Assembly: GCA_029204225.1 (NCBI GenBank)
Contig: CM055111.1
Coordinates: 19,721,003 to 19,785,002, forward strand
Direction: 5' to 3'
Length of the DNA: 64,000 nucleotides
Source: Diphasiastrum complanatum
Taxonomy: Eukaryota > Streptophyta > Lycopodiopsida > Lycopodiales > Lycopodiaceae
The notes beneath the pieces are model-generated. The model worked only from the letters and a program-made list of their open reading frames with translations. It was not told where the DNA came from and ran no database searches. The first letter of the stretch is position 1; each line of letters starts with the position of its first letter. Below, piece by piece: positions 4,628 through 49,798 of this stretch. The position numbers and the translations under genes were made by a program.

Positions 4628-5610
4628 GTAGTGGGGTGTACTGGGTAGAGTTGTTGATTGCCACCAAAAAGGTGAAGTCTTGAATCCCGACCACTATGTA
4701 GTAACATCTAAGGAGGCTAGCTTTGTAAATGGCATTGCCAAGTTGTATATGTTGTAACTAGTTGCTTAATATGTATGCAAAAAAAAAAATTCATTTTAGC
4801 AACATAATTTCGTCATAAAATTATGATGAGTCTGTCAAGTGAAGTTGTAACTAAAGAGTGATCTTACTAAGTGTAAAATAAAAGGATCTTTCTCAAGCAT
4901 AAAATTTAAAGGATAATGATGAAATCCTTTATTCATGGCTGAAATTTTAAATTAGGTTTCCCTCCAATTTGTTTATAGGTTTTTAAAAAAAATTGCCTTC
5001 AAAATCCTGCGTCCCAAATTTTTTGCCAATAAACAAACATTTCCTCTCATGTGAGGTCATTTTCAAGTTTCATAAAGATCATATGTCAAGAAAGTAGGTG
5101 ACCACTTTCACTTTCCATAATATGGTGGCCAAAATTTTACAATTATCTTATGTTCACACAATGTGGCGAACATGAATTGCATACATAATTTTTTTGAGAA
5201 ATCAAGATTTTTACAATGCAGAAATATTGCATCTACTACATGTAAAAGACATAAACTCAACAAGAACTTGTCAAAATCACTTATGTAAGTTGATTTATTG
5301 TTCCAGTCCGTGCAACAGTCGTACAACAACAATACTCACACGTGGGACCTCATACATATAAGAAAAATAGCATTTTATACACAATAATCCATTATTATAT
5401 CATCACTAAAATGCAAAAATGGATGTAGAACCCCAAAGAGATATTCCATAAGAATGAATGAGAGAAGAATAAGAGAGATGAAATGCTCCCATGCTTGTAG
5501 CCTATTTATAATAGCCTTTTGTCCTATTTGGATGCTCTTACTCAAGCTTATCAACTTATGGAAGGTTCTAGATCTCTTCCAAACCCTAAATCTAAGCCAC
5601 AACCTAAAAT
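4628..5610. other. AT-rich spacer, no gene seen
   Basis: No supported coding region. A TATA-like word (minus-strand TATAAATA at 5510-5503) lies downstream of the truncated LTR of copia A, so part of 5100-5610 may be the remains of another promoter or LTR. The sequence departs from the A-family LTR at about 5610. Confidence 0.35.
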
Positions 5611-5972
5611 GTATCTGTCGATGTCATACCATCAGATCAGAAATCTGTACTTCTGGGTACTTGCATGATCCTGCTGGTACTCTTTGGAGCATGTAGGCAG
5701 GAGAAGGTTTTGAATCTGTCGTTGTTTTGTTTTGGTCGTTTGCCTTCTCTCGTACTGGACCGCAAAAGATTCTCATTCGTGAATTTTTCGTGTTCGCGAA
5801 CCGTTCGTCTTCGTCTGCTTTGACTTTCGTGTTCATGAACCATTCGTCTTCGTTTCCTTTGACTTTTGTGTTCGCGAAACTTTTCGTGCTTTGTGTCTCC
5901 AGATCTTCGAGTTCGCGAATGTCTTCGTCGGGTTGAGGGCTGAAAGCTAGCAAGGCTTTGTAATTAGAAACA
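5611..5972 (-). repeat. Partial 3' LTR of copia A
   Basis: On the minus strand it begins TGTTTCT right after the polypurine tract AAGAAACAAAA, as do the other LTRs of this family. It contains about three diverged copies of a roughly 45-bp unit built on 'ttcgcgaacacgaaagtc' (5760-5930). Read as protein, these units give repeated ANTKVK-like peptides. Similarity to the 5' LTR stops at about 5610. Confidence 0.75.
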
Positions 5973-7990
5973 TTTTGTTTCTTTAGGTTGATCCATATAG
6001 ACCTCTTCGTCTAGCTCGCCATGCAAGAAGACTGTCTTCTCGTGCACAATGTGGATCATGAGTACATAAGCTGCTGCATATGCAAATAACAGACGTAAGG
6101 ACGGATGTTTGACCACAGGACAGAAGGTTTCAGAATAGTCAATACCATATCTCTGAGAAAATTCCTTTGCTACCAGTCTTGCATTGTATTTCATGACATT
6201 TCCATCTGGTCCGTATTTGAGATTGAAAATCCATTTGCATTTGACAGTCTTACGCTTATATGGTAATGGTTGCAACGTCCATACCTGGTTCTTCCTCATG
6301 GACTCCATCTCTTCGTTCATGGCTTGGATCCATCTGTCCTTCTCTGGAAATTCAATCGCTTCCTCGAAAGTCTGTGGTTCGCCACCGAATCCACAGAACT
6401 CTTCTGATGTAGAAGCAGAGCTACCTGGCACGTATCTTGCTGGCGCTCTTCGTGGTCTTGTCGAGCTTCTAGGAGATCCTCCTAGGACAACAATGTCTTT
6501 GCCTTTGTTTGCTCCGCTAGGTCCGGAACCATCTTGGTTTACAGGAATTATAGAAGTAAGCTACCTCTCGAATCTTTCGTTTTCAGATTCGTCACTCGAA
6601 TGGGAAGTGACTCAAAAATCCTCATTTTTGTGTTCATCTTCTCCTCCCTCTGTCACTGGCGGCAGGTCATAGTACTGTCTTTTCAGAACTTCATAGCTGA
6701 CAGGATCGTCATCGGCCATTGTCCTGCTCTCATCAAATCTGACATCTCTCACTGTTCTCACAGTGTTCGTGTCTGGCATGTAGACTCTGTAGTATGACGA
6801 ATTGTTGTCATAACCTACTAGAAATCCCTGCTCGGCTTTCTCATCAAGCTTCTTTCAAAGCTTATTAGGAATATGTGCATAAGCTGCACAGCCAAAGATT
6901 TTGATGTGAGACAGGTTGGGCTTTCTACCCCACCATAACTCATGTGGTGTCGTGTGAGGGACACTAGGCTTGTCTGTCCTGTTCAGGATGTATGCGGCTG
7001 TAGCTACTGCTTCAGCCCACAGTACCCTTGCAGCCTTCGAGTAGGCCATCATGCATCTGATAGCTTCCATCAGGGCCCTGTTCTTTCTTTCTACAACACC
7101 ATTGTGCTACGGTGTGTAGGCTTCAGTCCTTGTATGAATGATGCCACAATCATTGTAGAAGTCAGTAAAGCGATTCGAGATGTATTCGTCACCCCGATCT
7201 AATCTGATCTACTTAACCTTTTTTCCTATATATCTCTCAGCCCAATTCACATATTCTATGAATTTATCAAGTGTTTCAGATTTATTTTGAATAAAATACA
7301 CTCTGGCGAATTTACTATAATCATCAATGAAGGTTATATAATATTTTGAACCTCCTATTGAGATCATATTGAAAGGCCCACAGATGTTAGAATGCACTAA
7401 CTCCAGAATCTTGATCGTTCTGTAGGAGTCTTTGATGAATGGAGTGCGTAACATCTTACTCTTCAAACATGCATCACAGGTGGTCGAACTAGTTGTATTT
7501 GAGATACTACCCCTGTTATTGCTCCATGATGGCTTGCTTGGTAAAGTGCCATTGAGTTCATGTGGCAGAGTCTCCTGTGCCACAGAGTGTATGGCGAGTC
7601 ATCATGAGTCTGATGCACCTGATCTGCAAGTAGGCATACCTTCAGATGATATAGATTACCTTTCCTTCTGCCTTGAGCGATCAGAGCACTGGTACTAGCG
7701 TCAACCATGTTGCATGCTTCATCAAAAAATGTCATGCGCATTTCTGCATCTGCTATTTTTGCTACGGAAAGCAAGTCTTGCTACAGTGTAGGCATGAACA
7801 GAACGTCTTCGAGTCGTTTGTCTCTGCCATTGGTGTTGATCCACAGTGAACCCATACCGTTCACTTGATATTTAGATCCATCTCCAAGAACTATGATACT
7901 TGAAGGATCTGCACTTCTAAAATCAGACATGATTCGTCTTGATGTCATGAAGTGTGAGGTGGCTCCTGAATCTAGGATCACCTCATGTGT
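5973..7990 (-). pseudogene. Copia A pol: protease, integrase, N-terminal RT
   Basis: The protease active site reads LDSGATSH at about 7975. The GAG-pre-integrase zinc region (LWHRRLCHMN) follows, then integrase and RT. In integrase the first catalytic Asp is replaced by Asn (HSNICG; element D has HSDICG). The second Asp (LDRGDEY) and the Glu (NGVVERKN) remain. RT begins near 6400 (WIQAMNEEM, KCKWIFNLKYG, RLVAKEFSQ) and runs to MDQP. It then jumps straight into the polypurine tract, reading KETKCF and a stop. The YVDD motif and RNase H are absent. Multiple stops and frame changes break the ORF. Confidence 0.85.
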
Positions 7991-24313: not shown

Positions 24314-24539
24314 GAGGATTGTGGTTCCTTCGTGGAAGCTTCGCGACTGCAAAACCCAAATCGCGATACACGAACCTGATTCCTCATCAAGAACGTCGCA
24401 CAAAACATCGCGAGTTCTAACCTAAATATGAATTTATAAAGTGCAAGTACGGCTTTACATGAATTTAGGCACTATAACATATTTACATGTACAATATAAA
24501 CAATAATTTTGGATAATGTGGGATCATGAGGCTCCACAT
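24314..24539 (-). other. Left flank of element E, possible LTR start on the minus strand
   Basis: Minus-strand reading across the element E insertion site, with E and one target copy removed, gives a purine tract (GAGGAAGGGGATA) followed by TGTGGAGCCTCATGATC. This is the form expected of a polypurine tract and LTR start downstream of the H3-fold gene. No second copy of this putative LTR was found in the window, so the reading is tentative. Confidence 0.35.
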
Positions 24540-25359
24540 TGTGAGAAATTGGCAAAAATCTAGCTTGGTATTTTTTATGATAGAAGTTTGTAAGTGAATC
24601 TCACATGTGTGGAGGATGTTCCCACATGTGGAGAATTGTAAAGTAAATCAAAATGTTTGATATAGGGGTCTCATAGAATTTCATAGTCAAGCATTTAGGT
24701 GTAGGATGTTGATAGGGTCAAATTTGGCATAGATGGCAAATTATCCATTTCCACTTGTAATGCCAATATTGAGCCAAAATAGAGCCAAACTTGTGCCAAT
24801 TAGAGTGTAGACAAGTGTCATGCTTTTGTTTGATGAAGCTTAAGTGGTCCAATAGGATTTAGAGGTGGAACCTTGTGAGGTCCAATAGAAAATTGAGGTG
24901 TGCTTGAATATAGTCCAATAGAATTTAGAGGTGCATGGATCAATGGTCCAATAAGATTAAGAGGTGGCAAAGTGTGATCCAATCATAGTTAAGCATAGTG
25001 GTAGCTCATGAATCTATTAGTATCATTGTACTCCTCCTTTTGGATCTAATTGATTTTGAGATTGAGTGGATTTTGAGTGTCATTGAATTTCTAGCTTTCT
25101 CTCTCTACCCGAGAGCTCATGATGCATTTTCTCCCTCTACCCGAGGAGAGCAGCTTGTTTTTACTTAGAATACTTTTGGAACACTTCCCACACGTGTGAG
25201 TGAGAGTTGGAAGTGATTGAATGCATGTAGTAGTGTGTTTTTGCCATAGAATCAAAGATAGATCTTGAATCTCAATCTAGTCTTGATCTTGGTGCATCTA
25301 CACACCTTAGGAGATCACAAGTACATGTAGTGGACAATCTACACATGTGAAATTCAACA
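24540..25359 (+). repeat. 5' LTR of element E
   Basis: Begins TGTGAGAAATTGG and ends AATTCAACA, immediately followed by the PBS. It contains several 'aggtccaatag' direct repeats (24,870-24,960). It also has a hairpin-prone pair of 'ctctctacccgag' words near 25,105 and 25,130. Confidence 0.95.
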
Positions 25360-25372
25360 TGGTATCAGAGCC
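25360..25372 (+). promoter_or_regulatory. Primer-binding site of element E
   Basis: TGGTATCAGAGCC abuts the 5' LTR. It matches the initiator-Met tRNA 3' end word used by most plant copia elements. Confidence 0.95.
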
Positions 25373-26116
25373 TACCTAAGGTTACCATGCATTTTGATCC
25401 ATTTGAGTGAAAACTATTCATCAATCTTGAGCTAGAAATTGTCAAGGCCCATTTTCCTAGTTATGTTGTTCAATTTTGGATCAAAAGAGATCAAAAGGAC
25501 ATTGATTGGGTCTGACCTGGTACTGTACGGAATCAGGTGCTCAGACATGTGTGAGGAACATCCAATTTCAGTTTGGGAGTTTTCTTTCATGTTTGATCCA
25601 AAAATCTTGCTAGATAGCTTGTTTTGAAGCTATTTTTGTCTAGTTTCTGATGCAATCAGTTTCATTCCATTTGGTTGAGCCAATCAAAAGTTATAAGCTT
25701 TTGAAGAGGGTTAGGTAGGGCACCTAGACCTGGGTGGACACATGTGGTTTGGTCAAAAGATTGCTTGTTTGATCCAAAATCACAGTTGAATGCTTACCAA
25801 TCTCATCTATATGTGATCTAGGCATTGTTTTGAGATCTTAGCCATTTTGTTTCATGCAATATCATTGTATTTGAGTCAAATTTGGTTTCTTACTGTATTT
25901 CACACGTGCTAAGAGTGTTTGATCTTAACTTTGCCCATACTCCATCATTTGATGTGAAGTAGATCTAGTTTTGGAGAGATTGAGATAGCTAGTGAGAATC
26001 ATCTCACAATTTGTTGCAAGATCTTGCATAGGAGATGGTAGCACACCATTATTGGATCCTATAGTGAGAGAGAAGCAACATTTTTTATTCATCACTTTTA
26101 TTTATCTCCACTTTAC

Positions 26117-27966
26117 ATGACTTCAATGAGTTCATACTTGTTGCAACCAAGTGAGAGATTGTCTACTTCCAATTATTCAATATGGAAGTTGAGGATGGAG
26201 TCCATCTTGATACTCCAAGATGTGATGGACATTGTACTTGGGATTGAGGAGGAGCCTCAAGTCCTTCAAGAAGTACAAAAATACAAGAAGAGAGCTAGGA
26301 TGGCTCTCCACTACATTAAGATGGATGTCTCTAATGAGATATTGAGGGAGATTGGTGATTGTTCTACATCCAAGGAAGCTTGGGATTGTCTCAAGTCCAT
26401 CTATGAGGCTAAGAACACCTCTAGGCTCCTCAAAATAGTAAAAAGAGTGATGAGAGTGCATCTAATTATGTTTTGAGAGTCAGGGATATTCATAGGGAGC
26501 TTGCATGTATTGGTGACTCAATCAATCAAAGTGAGCTAGTCCAAGTCATTCTCAATGGCTTGAGAGATGAATATGACAACCTTGTCCAATCCTATGCTAT
26601 TAAGGAGGAGCTACCAAGTTTGGAGGCCCTTCAAAGTGTGCTTATTTCTGAAGAATCAAGACAAGAGTACAAACTCTTGAGGATGGACAAGCTATCACTC
26701 AATCATGATGATGACAAAGTTCTATTTGCCAAGCACAAAGAGAGGAGTAAGAAGCAACACCATCACTTCTCTAATGACAAAGCTAAAGACCAAGATGGAG
26801 AGGAGGAGGATACCTCTCATGCTTCTAATTCAAATCTCAAGAAGAAGATGATCAAGTGCTTTTATTGTGGCAAGAAAGGCCATTATGCCACCAATTGCTT
26901 CAAGAAGAAGAATCAACTCAATCAAGCCAACATCACCAATGAGAAAGAAGACTATATTGCAAGTGATGGAAAATGCTCTCTTATGGCATCAAGCTTCTCC
27001 TCTTCCACCTTTAACAAGGATGACTCATGGTATATTGATAGTGGAGCATCTTCACATATGTGTGGCTCGAAGCACTTTTTTTCATCTATTATGCCTTATG
27101 ATGGAGTCAAGAAGACCATATACTTTGCAAGTAAGCATGAGTGCAATATTGAAGGAGTAGGGATTATTCCCTTGAAGCTTGCATCTTCTAAAGATCTCTT
27201 TCTCAACAATGTTCTTTTTGTCCCAAAGCTTATAAAGAACATCTTAAGTGTTGGCCAACTTCTTGATAGTGGCTTTGATGTCAATTTCAATATTGACAAT
27301 TGTGTGATTAAGAAGGATGGTGAGATCCTTGCATATGGATCAAGATTTGAAGGCATTTACAAATTGGATCCAAGTGAGAGTGCAAACTCTCTTGATGTTT
27401 CTTATATTTCCAAAATTTCAAAGGAGGAGGATGACACAAGATGCACATATCTTCTCTCTTCAAGTATTATGGTGTATGATTATTCCTTATTATTCAAAGC
27501 ATATGTTGAGAAGAAATTCTCATTGAAGATCAAAGCTTTGAGGAGTATTGGAGCTCTTGAAGGAATAGCACCATATGAAGTTTTATTCAAGATGAAGCCT
27601 AAGGTTGATCACCTTAGTGAACTTGGTAGTGCTTGCTTTGCACATATTCCCTTGGAAACAAGAAGGAAGGATGATCCAAGCTCATGGATCATGATTGGAT
27701 ACTCATCCATCAAGGAGGCCTTTAGTGTCTTTACACTCTCTATTTCAAATGTGATCGTGAATAGAGATGTCATATTGCATGAAGATTCAATCTTGGAAGT
27801 GGCCGAGATCAAGGCTTCTCAAGAAGCATCACAAGTTATCCTTTTTGAAGGTATTCAAGTTATGATGGGGCCAATGTGTGAGGAGGAGTTTCTTCTTCAT
27901 ATGATTTCAAGAAGATCTTCAAGATGCATGGCCGAGTCTTTATGGCTCACCTTACATGGCAAATAG
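26117..27966 (+). pseudogene. Element E gag-protease-integrase remnant
   Basis: Gag begins with ATG at 26,117 (copia gag form, YSIWKLRMESIL). A frameshift in the A-rich tract near 26,436-26,446 moves into a 497-codon frame. That frame holds the zinc knuckle CFYCGKKGHYATNC (about 26,857-26,900), the protease site WYIDSGASSHMCG (about 27,028), and pre-integrase sequence ending in YKLDPSES. At about 27,480 it jumps to the integrase C terminus (APYEVLFKMKPKVDHLSELG, then VIVNRDVILHEDS), skipping the zinc and DDE core. Except for the frameshift, the frame is otherwise open, which fits recent insertion. Confidence 0.9.
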
Positions 27967-28783
27967 GGGCATCTTTCATGTTGTATCTACTACAACACAT
28001 TCATATATGCTTCTCTTCCTTTGCTTGAAATGCTATCTTGCTTCATTGAATTTTTTGGATCTCAAAGTTCAAGAAAAGCTATACTAGTTTTGTATGATGC
28101 TTATGGTATGGACATGTTTCTTGTCATTATTGACTTAGCTGTGTTTCCAATACTTTTTGAAAGCAAGATATTGTATTGTCAAAAGTATGCTCTTGGTTCT
28201 AGTAAGACAAGATTGAGCTTGGTACTCACTTTTTTGAAAATCATGTTTTCACATGTTTTGAGGCAAATTGTAAACTCCTCTTGAGATTAAGTGAAGCATC
28301 CTTACATCCTTGAGAGAGTAACTAGCCTAAAAAAGATCAAGATAGTCTTTGATATCAAGATTAGATCCATCATGGATATAGTTCATTGTATGTGGACTAG
28401 TCGAGCTAGAAAGCATAAGCTTGATAATCATCATTGTTTCACATCTTATGATCTTGATCTCCATGATCCTTATGAGGCTTGGAAGCCTCATATTTCTCTA
28501 TTTATGGTGCATCCATCATGCAAGTGGAACTTTCAAGGCAAAGATCATCATCAAGCATGGAGGAAGCCCATGATAATAGTGGCATATTGGTGGAGCACTC
28601 TTCAAAGGCATTGGCAAGAGATCTCTACCAAAGAGATCTTATCATGGATATGGTGAGGGTGCTGCTATGATGGATCCCTTGGCTGATTTTCACTTCTTAT
28701 GCATACCAAAGGATCCACTCAAAAATATTTACAAACTTCTCAAGTGATCTAGTACCTTTCCAAGCTATTTTTTTGAGGAGGAG
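27967..28783 (+). other. Non-RT filler of element E
   Basis: This 0.8 kb should hold RT and RNase H but shows no LYVDD, AFLHG or RNase H motifs in any frame. ORFs of 63-121 codons overlap; one contains SYDLDLHDPYEAWKPHISL. I recognise none. It may be badly scrambled pol or foreign filler. Confidence 0.5.
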
Positions 28784-29602
28784 TGTGAGAAATTGGCAAA
28801 AATTTAGCTTGGTATTTTTATGATAGAAGTTTGCAAGTGAATCTCACATGTGTGGAGGATGTTCCCACGTGTGGAGAATTGTAAAGTAAATCAAAATGTT
28901 TGATATAGGGGTCTCATAGAATTTCATAGTCAAGCATTTAGGTGTAGGATGTTGATAGGGTCAAATTTGGCATAGATGGCAAATTATCCATTTCCACTTG
29001 TAATGCCAATATTGAGCCAAAATAGAGCCAAACTTGTGCCAATTAGAGTGTAGACAAGTGTCATGCTTTTGTTTGATGAAGCTTAAGTGGTCCAATAGGA
29101 TTTAGAGGTGGAACCTTGTGAGGTCCAATAGAAAATTGAGGTGTGCTTGAATATAGTCCAATAGAATTTAGAGGTGCATGGATCAATGGTCCAATAGGAT
29201 TAAGAGGTGGCAAAGTGTGATCCAATCATAGTTAGGCATAGTGGTAGCTCATGAATCTATTAGTATCATTTTACTCCTCCTTTTGGATCTAATTGATTTT
29301 GAGATTGAGTGCATTTTGAGTGTCATTGAATTTCTAGCTTTCTCTCTCTACCCGAGAGCTCATGATGCATTTTCTCTCTCTACCCGAGGAGAGCAGCTTG
29401 TTTTTCCTTAGAATACTTTTGGAACACTTCCCACACGTGTGAGTGAGAGTTGGAAGTGATTGAATGCATGTAGTAGTGTGTTTTTGCCATAGAATCAAAG
29501 ATAGATCTTGAATCTCAATCTAGTCTTGATCTTGGTGCATCTACACACCTTAGGAGATCACAAGTACATGTAGTGGACAATCCACACGTGTGAAATTCAA
29601 CA
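28784..29602 (+). repeat. 3' LTR of element E
   Basis: Near-identical to the 5' LTR. Differences by eye include one T deletion in a T run near 28,815 and about eleven substitutions, mostly transitions. It is followed at once by the second CACAT. Confidence 0.95.
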
Positions 29603-29617
29603 CACATATCCCCTTCC

Positions 29618-31811
29618 TCAGCAGTGCAGTGGCTCGCAAACAAATTGCTTACAATCTTCTTTGTTACTTCCTTTTGGTTGGCTTTCTATGGAAAATAGCT
29701 TTTGCTCGGGCTTCATTTCATTCATTGACTTGCCTTTTGTAGCAAGGTAGTAATTGTTCTTCTGGTTGTAATCTTCCTGAAATGATAAATTCAAATAACC
29801 TCCCATTCCTTGATTTTCCAATGGTGCAAGGGGGTTGTCGATCAATGTGTTATTTTCAAGATGAGTGTACCAACTATCCCCAGACAAGATTTCAGACATC
29901 TCAGCAGAAGGGACAATTAGTGAGAGGGGTGCATATGTATATTTTGGGAATTTTTCTTTAATGTATAATTGTTGAATGGACAAAAGGGCATATGAAATGA
30001 GAGAACCAATATTTACATAATTGTAAGTATAGTATGGTTTGGTTATTGGGTTAGTAAAGCGAAGTATATCATCTGCTTTAACTTCCTCCAAATAATGAGA
30101 ATAATTAGCTTCCCAATCTGTGTAGATTTCCCACAGATCAAGGAATAATAGCTGACTAGAGACCTTGGAAGGAGTTGGATCAGGTCTAGGAACTACTCAA
30201 TTAACATCAAAAATGTTAATTGGGTCTAGCTTATTCCGATACTCATCCAAAGCTGGAAAAATATTGTTTTCAAATGTTTTTAGATATTCTAGGATATATA
30301 TATGCAAAGATCCTATAACAACGTGGATATAGTTAGTTTGCACATTGAGCTTATTCTGAACAATGGCAAGAGCAAAGATACCTTTTTGGTGCACTGTTAG
30401 TTTGGCCCAAAAAGTGTTTAGGCTAGAAAAAATCCAAGGGCTTTCCCATTGTTCTTTTGTATAACCAAAAAGTTTTGGTAAAAGAAGGTAATCCATTCTC
30501 CACTGGAGTTCTGGACTATTAAAAGGTAGAAGAAAAAATGTTAGTTCTTGTTGGAATGTCTGAAATTCTGTCTTTAGTAGTGAATACACTACCTTGTTCT
30601 TCCTCTTGACAGCTCCACTGTGTGATGCTTCAGCCTGCTACAAAATAATTGGTAGAGTTGCTGGTTGGTCTAAAGAAGCTATGTCACTGGTTGCTTTTGG
30701 CTTCACAGCATCCTCAAGGTCAGTCTGCACATCTTGATCTTTCTGGATTTGCTTAAAAACAATATCTATCTAGATGGCCTTCTCTGATGTATCTTTAACT
30801 GGCTCATCCATCTGCATAGACTAGTCTTGGCGCTGGACATGTTCTTTATCTTCAAAATTCTGGATTTGGCTTGATTGAAACTTAGCCTCTTCCAGTTCTT
30901 CTTTCAATTTCTCATATGAAACCATCTAGGGTTGCAAATATTGCAGTTGGAAGGTCTGGATAATTTTTTCTTGAATACCTTACAAGTTGTTGGGTCGATC
31001 CTGTATCTCCCATGAGATACACAAGCTCCCAATGTGACTTCGGCACTTATCCGCCATAGAATTGTCTCTTTGGCTTGTTTCTTATAGATTTGGTTGCCTT
31101 TCCTTAGTAGAGTCTGTAGAATTCTACAGCTAGGCAACAGAGTCCTGAAGCTGCTTTGATTTGCTTGGGCACTCTCCTTGTTGGTAATGGCATTGCTAAG
31201 TTTGTCGCTCAGCTCCTCGTTACTACTCTGCAAAGTAGCTCGTGCAACATCTGACTCAGAGCTCAAGAAGACACGGGGTCTCTTGGCCGGGATATGTCCA
31301 GGAGGAAGGGAGATAGCTGGCCTTCGAGATCCAGCCTTCTTGGGGACAACTTGCTTCTCTTCCTCCTAGAGGTAGTAGGCATGTTGGTTCTATCCAGAGG
31401 TAGGTCTCTAGAGGTGCTGGCATTATCAACATGCAGACCAAAATATCTGTCCCGAAGCCTTTTGAGAATGAAGAAATCCTTTGGCATGATGGTGACACGC
31501 TTACCATGCACTGCCAAAAGACAAGTATCCTCAAAAAACTAGGACAGAAAATCATCTGCAGCACCCTGCAAGGCATGCATGGCTGTCACGGCAAAACAAA
31601 TATCTAGGCCAAGTGACAGAGTGACATTCCATACAGATTGGCCGAAAGGAGCTCTAGGGATCAACAATTCAGTTGATCTCTGGAGTTTTCTGATCTCCCT
31701 CAGCCAGACCTGCTTCCTGCCACGCCTACAGCCAGTATCAGGGGGAACACGAGAATGGGATGGCTGTATAGTAGTGATGGCACGGGCGGTGGATTTGGTC
31801 ATGACCATCAT
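29618..31811 (-). pseudogene. Histone H3-fold protein with coiled coil and unknown C-terminal domain, broken
   Basis: Likely start at 31,811-31,802 (three clustered ATGs). The N tail begins MTKSTARAITT, echoing the canonical ARTKQTARKST. From about 31,690 the H3 fold runs without gaps against canonical H3: WLREIRKLQRSTELLI (helix N), then loop 1, helix 2 (TAMHALQGAADDFLS) and FFEDTCLLAVHGKRVTIMPK. His113 and the KRVTIMPKD core are kept; Cys110 is Leu. A basic Ser/Arg linker of about 60 residues follows to 31,263. A frameshift leads into a Gln/Glu-rich coiled-coil-like stretch (about 31,260-30,600), then about 350 mostly open residues (30,590-29,618) with no domain I know. Premature stops lie at 31,541, 31,132, 31,126, 31,084, 30,982, 30,928, 30,823, 30,772 and 30,640 (all TAG/TAA where Gln fits) and 30,199 (TGA where Trp fits). 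There is also a second frame change near 31,150. Confidence 0.7.
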
Positions 31812-32117
31812 TCTTGGAAGAAGAAAATTAACAAAAAGAAGTTTGAACAAAACAAAAGTGGATCAAAACAAAAAACTTTGCGATGAAAGGGCGCTTGAGA
31901 TCGATACCAGCACTGAATATCGGTTTCGAGCACAAGATCTATAGAGATTGTTTGTAGAAAAGAGATGCGCGCTCGAAAGCGATATTGCACAGCAGGCGGT
32001 ATCGGACTCGAGCGCACTGTGAGAGGACGGAAGCTTGAATTATGAAAGAGCGCACTTAAGAGCGATATCGAGAGCTAAAAGCGAAAATTTTGCGAAAAAA
32101 AATGAAAATTCCGAGGA

Positions 32118-32126
32118 CTTATATAG
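32118..32126 (-). promoter_or_regulatory. TATA box upstream of the H3-fold gene
   Basis: The minus strand reads TCTATATAAG about 310 bp upstream of the H3-fold ATG cluster. Upstream, 32,150-32,960 is dense in ACGT-core words (CACGTG and ACGTGTC), as in plant G-box/ABRE-type promoters. This is inferred promoter; transcription is not shown. Confidence 0.5.
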
Positions 32127-32128
32127 AC

Positions 32129-33011
32129 GAAATTTTTGCACATGTAAAAAGACGGCCGAGACATGTGTCATCAGATGATTAGACCACGTGGAATGTCTGT
32201 ACTAACAATGATGAGCCAAGTATGAGGCCACGTGGGCTGAGACACGTGTGCGAATACCTAATCGACACGTGTCATTCACGCACGTGACAGATGTTAGATC
32301 AATCATACTACGACACATTTATTTTGGCTAATCACAAGTTGATACGTGTTCCTTCGCCAGTCCTCCACACGTGCAATTTTTTTTTATAAATATGTCTTTT
32401 TTGGGCTCATATTTTCACGCAAATTCATGATTGCATTGCCAGATATCAATTTCAAACACACCGCTTGCTCTCATTACATCTTGTTGGCTAATATGCGCTT
32501 GGATCCGATACTACAACGTCCAGTTTCGCTTTGGAGCGCGTCTTGCAACCTTTTTCTTTTCTGCTCGTTTTCCTTGCGCTCGGATCCGATACTCCAACTT
32601 CAAATATCTCTCTCGAGCGCACGTTGATTTGATGTGCTTGTCGGACCTAGGGTTTGCGCCTGAGAGCGATATTTGGAACTTCAGTTCTGTTATTTTTGTT
32701 TAAAATGCTAATTTTGAATCTAGTTTGCTTTCTTTTTTTAATGGATTTTTGCAAATTTTTGCACGTGTGAAAAGACGTCCGAGACACGTGTCGTCAGATG
32801 ACTAGACCACGTGGAAATTCCGTACTGATAATGATGACCCAATTATGGGGACACGTGGGCTGAGACACGTGCGCGAATCCCTTATCGACGCATGTCATTC
32901 TCGGACGTGACAGATGTCAGATCAATCATTCATAGTATGACGCATTTATTTTGGCCAATCACATGTCGACACGTGTTGCTTTGCCGGATATCGATTTCAA
33001 GCACGCCGCTT
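32129..33011. repeat. Tandem duplication of an ACGT-rich promoter-like block
   Basis: A block of about 220 bp at 32,129-32,350 recurs at 32,752-32,975 in the same orientation (period about 623 bp); both start 'aaatttttgcac'. The match continues into 'ttgcca/cggatatc...tttcaaacac' (32,438-32,465 and 32,982-33,009), with about 80 extra bases in copy 1. Copy 2 is cut off at 33,011 by the segmental duplication. Between the copies, 'ggatccgatact' and 'gagcgc' words recur. Confidence 0.8.
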
Positions 33012-48610: not shown

Positions 48611-48669
48611 TTCACATTTGATATCTTTCCAAGTTCTTTTCACAACTTCATATATTTCTCTCAATAGTC

Positions 48670-49798
48670 ATGTCTACTAGTGGTAGCGGAGCATCAAGGA
48701 GGAGGCCAAGATCCTCTTCCGGTGGAAGAGGACAAGCCTCGGGATCGGATTATGATCGAGTGCAAGATTTTTATAGTATGCTATCTCCCGAGAAAAGGCA
48801 AAGGATAAAAGCCCTTTGTCTTTCCGAAGGAGAATCCGATCAACAAGATCGTGGATTCGTTTCGACAGACATGCCATCGGAAGAATCCACGAATATTTTC
48901 TATGACCTTGATGAGGATGATTCCATCATCATGGACATTAGGGGTAAGGTCATCATCGATAGATTGCACGACCTTACTCTTAAATACTTTGGTCACGATT
49001 TGTTTAGCCCTTGGGAGCAACAAGACCAAGGGGACAAAGACAAGATACTTGATATATTGTACCGTGAGTTTCCACAACCAAATCGATTTAATGACAAATG
49101 GGCGAAGACGAGTATGTGTACGCATATTCGTCATAAGCGCCAATTATTAAGACGATTTTGTAGTAAAAGCAAGAAGAGGCCGGGATGGGCATCTAAAAAA
49201 GATTGGGAAAAAGTTGTTTATGAATCCAAGCATCCTAATCTTGAGCGCTTTAAGCAACAAAGAGAGGCAACAAAATCAAGGCTTAATCTTTTAGGCCAAT
49301 CTCACCTTGGATCGGGAGGCAGGGCCAATATGCATGCCCAATTTGTAAGCAATTCTCTTTTAGCTAATTGGATTTCATATGTTTATTATTTATCAATATT
49401 TTTTTTGTTTTTTTCTAATCATCGATTGGTGTTGATGAAGGTTGATAAGTATACAAATGTCGAGTACAATATTGGATATCGCATGGCTATAATGCCTTGG
49501 TTGATCATCTTGCGACACAAGGCGTACATCCAGGGTAAGTTTTTGTTACATAATTTGTATTTCTCTTATTTTTTATACACAATTTTTATTTCATTTCAAT
49601 TTTATGACGTGTTTGGCTAATAGTTATTAATTTGTTTTGTGAATATGTATGTAGAGGGCATCCGCTTCCTTTGTGGAAGAAAGTACGGGAGGAAACCAAG
49701 GAGAAGAAGGGAATGAAGATGAAGGGGACGAAGGCGAAGACGAAGGACAAGATTCGGCTTCGGGCAACGATGAGGGAGAAGATAGCGAAGACTAAGAA
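48670..49798 (+). CDS. tnp1-like protein (Ptta/En/Spm plant transposase family), probably spliced
   Basis: ATG at 48,670 opens MSTSGSGASRRRPRSSSGG, a low-complexity start. It continues to a conserved helical block (LFSPWEQQDQGDKDKIL, NDKWAKTSMCTHIRHKRQL, RPGWASKKDWEKVV). It ends in the REATKSRLNLLGQSHLGSGG signature, which resembles the end of the PF03004-type domain. A donor GTAAGC at about 49,348 and a second, GTAAGT, at about 49,534 suggest introns. A final exon from about 49,660 gives an acidic tail (GNEDEGDEGEDEGQDSASG) ending at 49,796. The exon-2 frame could not be fixed. No stop interrupts exon 1. It may belong to a CACTA element, but it lies opposite in strand to tnp2. Confidence 0.55.

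Follow-up and report, generated by a model that had tools for sequence, protein, structure and literature searches.

Histone H3-bearing DNA transposons in Diphasiastrum complanatum and the junction of one of them with a Ty3/Gypsy retrotransposon fragment

H3-like (H3L) genes ride on hAT DNA transposons in the fungi Pyrenophora tritici-repentis (PMC3538342) and Pseudocercospora fijiensis and its relatives (PMC6710886) and, among the published cases found, this capture of H3 is the closest to the H3-bearing plant transposons described here. The captured H3 copies of P. fijiensis are reported to be RIP-inactivated, and the hAT target site duplication (TSD) to measure 8 bp (PMC6710886); for the H3-like copies of P. 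tritici-repentis, the authors suggest drift (PMC3538342). The fungal and plant elements are alike in being inverted-repeat DNA transposons of high copy number, with an H3-like ORF beside the transposase and an altered H3 tail. In contrast, the fungal captures look recent, whereas here the host is a plant, three families have the gene and purifying selection acts between the families; moreover, the fungal transposase is of the hAT type, whereas the one found here is not recognized by Pfam. Other transposons also carry chromatin genes, among them the fungal TET/JBP transposons (PMC12730594) and the VANDAL elements with their anti-silencing VANC (PMC10398659, PMC5735166). The resemblance lies in a gene on the element whose product probably works against epigenetic silencing; however, those elements encode an enzyme or a DNA-binding protein, and the present ones a nucleosome building block. 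No H3-bearing plant transposon was found in the open literature searched, a scope outside which subscription journals, preprints and Repbase lie.

The window, that is, the whole stretch of 64,000 nucleotides that we analysed, corresponds to C20:19,721,003-19,785,002 in a genome of 1.74 Gb and 5,176 contigs (Table 1). A sequence-only reading had placed an H3 fold on the minus strand from 31,811, and the fold is indeed there: PF00125 matches 31,539-31,811 above the Pfam cut-off (E 9.4e-9, minus strand) and 31,263-31,538 below it (E 9.6e-5, minus strand), and an intact relative can be aligned with the encoded protein over its residues 1-158 with no gap. In tblastn, the L033 protein finds this gene with E 1.2e-82, at 81% over residues 1-158 and 78% over 152-187. 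The same reading had taken TKSTAR for an echo of the H3 tail, rightly so, as the start MVMTKSTARA resembles the ARTKQTAR of H3. The similarity is far from chance; searched against its own genome, the H3 stretch gives 7,108 first-look candidates and, among the best 150, which were scored, the weakest listed still has E 3.2e-63. The frame is interrupted by one in-frame TAG (31,539-31,541) and by a frameshift near 31,345, and single-sequence structure prediction of the stretch is useless (mean pLDDT 39). A repeat search finds a duplicated stretch within the surrounding transposon fragment (32,130-32,306 and 32,753-32,929). Elsewhere in the window, a 332-residue open frame without a Pfam match occupies 48,622-49,617 on the plus strand.

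Table 1. Features of the window around the broken H3-fold gene
Feature	Position	Strand	Evidence
H3-fold gene, broken: MVMTKSTARA tail, core of H3 and basic linker	31249..31808	-	tblastn with L033 protein; Pfam
Fragment of H3-bearing DNA transposon of family C: 5' two thirds of H3 gene plus upstream region	31245..32984	-	blastn 81-90% to L021, L032-L035
Junction of two mobile elements	31245..31246	.	end points of 40 scored matches to 261-bp query
3' half of extra ORF of Ty3/Gypsy retrotransposon (coiled coil and C-terminal 350 residues), several stops	29603..31244	-	75-77% to L036, L045 over 31,148-29,603; coil-region protein match to L036
Copia LTR retrotransposon inside Gypsy fragment	24540..29602	+	LTRs, TSD; gag and pol domains in 26,425-27,963
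Gypsy sequence resuming past Copia insertion	24402..24539	-	73% to L036 3772-3928

The H3 fold had been read as the head of a long protein continuing through a coiled coil and about 350 further residues. All three parts do lie on one strand; however, they do not form one protein, since homology to the H3 gene ends at 31,245. By blastn, the family-C relatives L021 and L032-L035 match the window from 32,984 to 31,245 only, and the sequence beyond is a different, separately abundant repeat. A 261-bp query laid across 31,245 gave 1,236 first-look candidates, of which the best 40 were scored. The whole junction is present in 12 of these 40 and a partial span (query 99-261) in three more, all 15 on C20; 19 others, of which 18 lie outside C20, end on the H3 side at query base 141, and six begin at query base 140, on the C-terminal side, all on C20. 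Off C20, where 135 H3 copies and 134 C-terminal pieces were listed, no H3-Gypsy pair occurs within 5 kb, while the natural C-terminal domain (150 listed) forms 29 pairs with those H3 copies at a spacing of 485-758 bp, all pair counts being among the matches listed, where absence is not proof. Near the 12 junction copies, the natural C-terminal domain was not found among the matches listed. The intact relatives carry a different C-terminal extension after H3. The lineage-specific H3-fold fusion once proposed for this locus thus dissolves into two repeats that, among the matches listed, are joined only on C20, an outcome that the sequence-only reading had itself named as refuting it, and a fusion gene is rejected on the junction and neighbourhood tests. 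The guess of that reading that a mobile element might carry it as cargo holds, as the intact H3 relatives sit in multi-gene transposons.

Around the window, C20:17.18-20.14 Mb holds at least 12 dispersed local copies of the junction, in both orientations and 94-100% identical there, which marks this interval as a segmental duplication zone. All 12 whole junctions sit in it. These copies bear on the proposal that the chimera is a real new gene, kept on C20, whose H3 fold, coiled coil and C-terminal domain are translated in frame through the junction. Linker and Gypsy part do share one frame there (ORF 30,904-31,365) and at least 12 copies of the joined piece are present locally; however, the chance of an in-frame joining is one in three, each of the 12 copies carries 1-3 stops within the 134-residue H3 stretch, with no uninterrupted copy seen among them, and the copy in the window adds a frameshift and further stops. 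We regard such a gene as extremely improbable. In our view, the window almost certainly holds a fossil junction between a family-C H3 transposon and the extra ORF at the 3' side of a Ty3/Gypsy retrotransposon, the joined piece having then multiplied locally on C20 and having been interrupted by a Copia insertion. The LTRs of the latter (24,540-25,359 and 28,783-29,602) are 98.5% identical, with 11 mismatches, and are flanked by the TSD CACAT (24,535-24,539 and 29,603-29,607).

The origin of the C-terminal part is indicated by the sequence upstream of its relatives. At L046 (C3), upstream of the ORF, Pfam recognizes RVT_1 (7.4e-26), RT_RNaseH (5e-9), Integrase_H2C2 (1.9e-11) and rve (5.7e-12), in the order RT, RNase H, integrase, and the extra ORF follows this integrase frame in L045, at one locus only, L036 being truncated upstream. 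Because these domains lie upstream at this one locus, we regard the C-terminal part as an additional ORF on the 3' side of a Ty3/Gypsy element. The L046-L045 sequence ends before any 5' LTR, and the end of the Gypsy-type frame has a weak match, below the cut-off, to the SH3 domain of Tf2-1 (E 0.0046). In L036 and L045 the same ORF reaches further 5'. The large extra ORF behind the Gypsy integrase (L045:874-3668, L036:1598-3727) comprises a coiled coil and an unrecognized C-terminal domain and has no Pfam match; an uninterrupted copy was not seen, and among PDB sequences the ORF found only keratin (E 0.6), taken as a coiled-coil chance match. A 146-residue piece of the C-terminal part has 3,317 first-look candidates of its own, of which the best 150 were scored. 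Elsewhere, at L023:1-1052, a family-A H3 element lies immediately within the 3' region of a member of this Gypsy family, the match to L036 ending at the left end of the element; the two types of element thus meet at other sites too.

The H3 gene derives from very abundant, approximately 9-kb terminal-inverted-repeat DNA transposons, which form three diverged families (A, B and C) with four gene blocks, encoding a transposase-like protein, two unknown proteins, P and Q, and the H3-fold protein. A PF00125 profile search of the genome gave 6,325 first-look candidates; among the best 150, which were listed, 13 score 163-165 bits and represent host H3 (eight were fetched, all eight a full H3 with A31, Y41, S87 and L90), and the other 137 score 83-110 bits. 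From these 137 loci, 20 were fetched, chosen not at random but for long open frames (12 of family A, seven of B and one of C). The element copies align well past the H3 ORF. Inverted repeats are found at both ends of L022 (859-9813, 8,955 bp) and B16 (8,681 bp), and a Helitron, considered because of a hairpin-like end, was dropped on account of the inverted repeat at both ends. The termini read CATTAG..CTAATG in all three families, both ends of a single copy being seen in A and B only: family A opens and closes with CATTAGGGCCCTTTTTGGACTC... and family B with CATTAGAGGAGTTCTCAATATC..., and the right end of family C is likewise CATTAGAGAAACTTAGAG.... The right end of family A has 1,287 first-look candidates, and the best 40, the ones scored, are all 99-100% identical to the query, which indicates that family A amplified recently. 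For the transposase exon there are 13,814 first-look candidates, of which 113 were scored; 21 of the 113 have a listed H3 within 6 kb, where 0.1 would be expected by chance, and 20 of these 21 pairs are on opposite strands, 17 of them 2.6-2.8 kb apart. Copies occur on all of C1-C23.

By tblastn, the three families have in common the transposase-like exons, protein P and the final exon of Q, family C being represented mostly by a single locus, L033. The transposase matches between A and B with E 4.5e-70 and between A and C with E 2e-58, and protein P with E 1.7e-35 and 1.7e-28, respectively; the first exons of Q are similar in B and C (E 2e-37), without a match to A. In A the genes run P+ H3+ Q- Tpase-, in B and C Tpase+ Q- H3+ P-. 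Neither P nor Q nor the transposase pieces have a credible match in Pfam, no PDB sequence resembles the transposase exon at E up to 10, and scans of viral contigs with single sequences of the transposase exon and of P found no relatives. P and Q, as seen in L022, L016 and L033, are conserved element proteins common to the three transposon families.

The transposase conserves an LDE/S..EI region, then EWHLA.DLK with C(2)C after it, and GMEKSH, which H(4)H precedes by about 20 residues. C(2)C follows the candidate second acidic residue in the A and B copies L022, L011, L017, L016 and L028 and reads PCLYY in the sole C copy, L033; H(4)H..MEKSH occurs in 10 loci across A, B and C. The acidic, DDE-type residues are motif-like only and are regarded as candidates. 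The CMCT clade (EnSpm/CACTA, Mirage, Chapaev, Transib, Plavaka, ESTA and Lanisha) is described as marked by C(2)C, H(3-4)H, 5'-CA..TG-3' ends and a TSD of 2-5 bp (PMC12730594). By these marks the present elements resemble the clade in their C(2)C and H(4)H, which lie between the candidate second acidic residue and the last E, and in their CA..TG ends; they differ from it, however, in having no 3-5 bp TSD in five copies, no Pfam match and an H3-fold gene aboard. Seven copies were checked for a TSD, of which five are independent and informative (the left end of L037 lies outside the sequence, and L041/L042 duplicates L039/L040), and no TSD of at least 3 bp was found in these five; L013 has a 2-bp match, CA/CA. 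For this reason, and despite C(2)C, H(4)H and CA..TG, the element appears CMCT-like and we do not file it as a CMCT member.

The H3 fold is also recognized by Pfam in L034 (E 1.5e-23) and L024 (E 3.9e-27). The proteins of B and C (293-375 residues) consist of an H3 core, a linker and a shared C-terminal domain, which is 30% identical between them over 119 residues (E 2e-16). That of family A lacks this domain; it begins with MARTKQTAR, continues through a long Q/P-rich stretch and has the H3 core last, ending like H3 (RRLRRERN). In the A copy L009 (412 residues; 4829-6064, minus strand), an exact ARTKQTAR precedes an SR-, Q- and P-rich stretch of more than 200 residues and then the core. With canonical H3 and CENH3 these proteins share the fold, most residues of L2 and alpha-3 and, in A and C, the ARTK start; unlike them, they have a tail that is not that of H3 past residue 8 and either an extra C-terminal domain (B, C) or a long N-terminal insert (A), and all are longer than the approximately 135 residues of canonical H3, which ends after alpha-3. 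Only the first 6-9 residues of the tail resemble the canonical one, ARTKQTARKSTGGKAPRKQ..., of the host copies with its K9 and K27. K4 is present in 23 of 25 copies (the exceptions being R in L020 and E in L021) and D, G or A occupies position 9 in all 25, K9 being found in none, counts that include near-duplicate loci and that are not independent, as the copies derive from three families, perhaps from one capture; the search pattern held D or A at position 9, with four substitutions allowed. The motif ARK[ST] is absent from the six element proteins looked at. In the core, R69, R83, H113, K115, R116, T118 and D123 of H3, which we take to be nucleosome contacts (H4 pairing, DNA), are kept in all three families; R63 and K64, presumably DNA-facing in H3, are replaced by P and R in all three.

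CENH3 has a longer loop 1 than H3, and the element protein might be a CENH3 mimic that steers insertions to centromeric chromatin. The core of family C scores 76.6 bits against human CENP-A, slightly above H3.3 (74.6) and plant H3.1 (73.7). However, the core of family A is closest to plant H3.1 (101.8 bits), with no CENP-A among the best 60 listed, loop 1 has the length of H3 in A and C and one residue more in B, and the copies are spread over every one of C1-C23, so that we consider mimicry very unlikely.

Core identities are 46-47% between A and B, 40-46% between A and C, 59-62% between B and C, and 47-56% to host H3. In frame, the core gives pN 0.29-0.41, pS 0.76-0.84 and a ratio of 0.38-0.55 between families (two copies per family), as against 0.75-1.93 in shifted frames; within families, pooled pN/pS is 0.45 in A, 0.30 in B and, close to neutral, 0.74 in C, for copies preselected for score or open frame. 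Between families, then, the core is under purifying selection and the element H3 gene apparently kept by it, although purifying selection does not reveal the role of the protein. In a tree, host H3 and CENP-A (90/90) stand apart from A and from B+C (100/98), a topology that allows, without proving it, that the element H3 may have a single origin. The tree took in 7 of 12 A, 6 of 7 B and 5 of 6 C loci; the remainder either had a stop or substitution that disrupted the pattern used for extraction or had not been listed, and the alignment reference L001:1501-1878 was out of frame and set aside.

We show that a conserved H3-fold gene travels with the transposase-like gene and is under constraint. 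The gene could nevertheless be passive cargo, a captured copy of host H3 amplified without function, as in fungal hAT elements; H3 capture by hAT is published for P. tritici-repentis, P. fijiensis and relatives, and all captured P. fijiensis copies are reported to be inactivated (PMC3538342, PMC6710886). Here, however, families have reached saturation at synonymous sites, yet the protein is still 40-62% identical, the out-of-frame controls differ, and the same partner genes lie beside H3 in all three families; had the gene been a passenger, it would have decayed, and we hold this explanation to be unlikely. A structural role, in which the ends of the element are wrapped or bent for the transposase by H4 and the H3-fold protein and chromatin marks do not matter, accords with the joint presence of H3 and transposase in three families whose divergence has reached about 40% identity and with the retention of H4-pairing and DNA contact residues. 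Such a role alone does not explain the retained ARTK end of the tail, however, and we think it somewhat improbable.

The reading that we put forward, as quite possible though short of probable, is that the intact protein is an element-encoded H3 variant, pairing with host H4 and deposited on the DNA of the element or built into the transposition complex, where it would yield silencing-resistant nucleosomes. The element H3 would pair with host H4 to form nucleosomes or end complexes on element DNA; because the tail keeps its K4 end and lacks the K9 and K27 sites, such nucleosomes would accept K4 marking and not the K9/K27 methyl marks of silencing, and the element would thereby stay transcribable. 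The extra C-terminal domain of B and C would bind another element protein or element DNA. Against resistance to silencing, the replacement of R63/K64, the terminal position of the core in family A, without the domain of B and C, and the near-neutral core of C may all be held. Taken jointly, the anatomy of the fossil junction and an element H3 variant resisting silencing make an account towards which we lean, on balance. More speculatively, and we offer this as a tentative idea, a plant transposon lineage may have domesticated H3 as a permanent core gene, building its own K4-bearing, K9/K27-less, silencing-proof nucleosomes, with lineage-specific C- or N-terminal addressing domains.

Histone-like gene models in such genomes would mostly be transposons, considering that only 13 of the 150 listed among the 6,325 H3 candidates score like canonical H3. 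The capture of H3 in fungi has so far been read as accidental cargo. Since the H3 fold here stays with the transposase down to about 40% identity, under purifying selection, an element-owned histone seems useful to the element, and the retention of K4 together with the loss of K9 and K27 makes for a testable idea, that of a transposon which may escape silencing at the level of the nucleosome.
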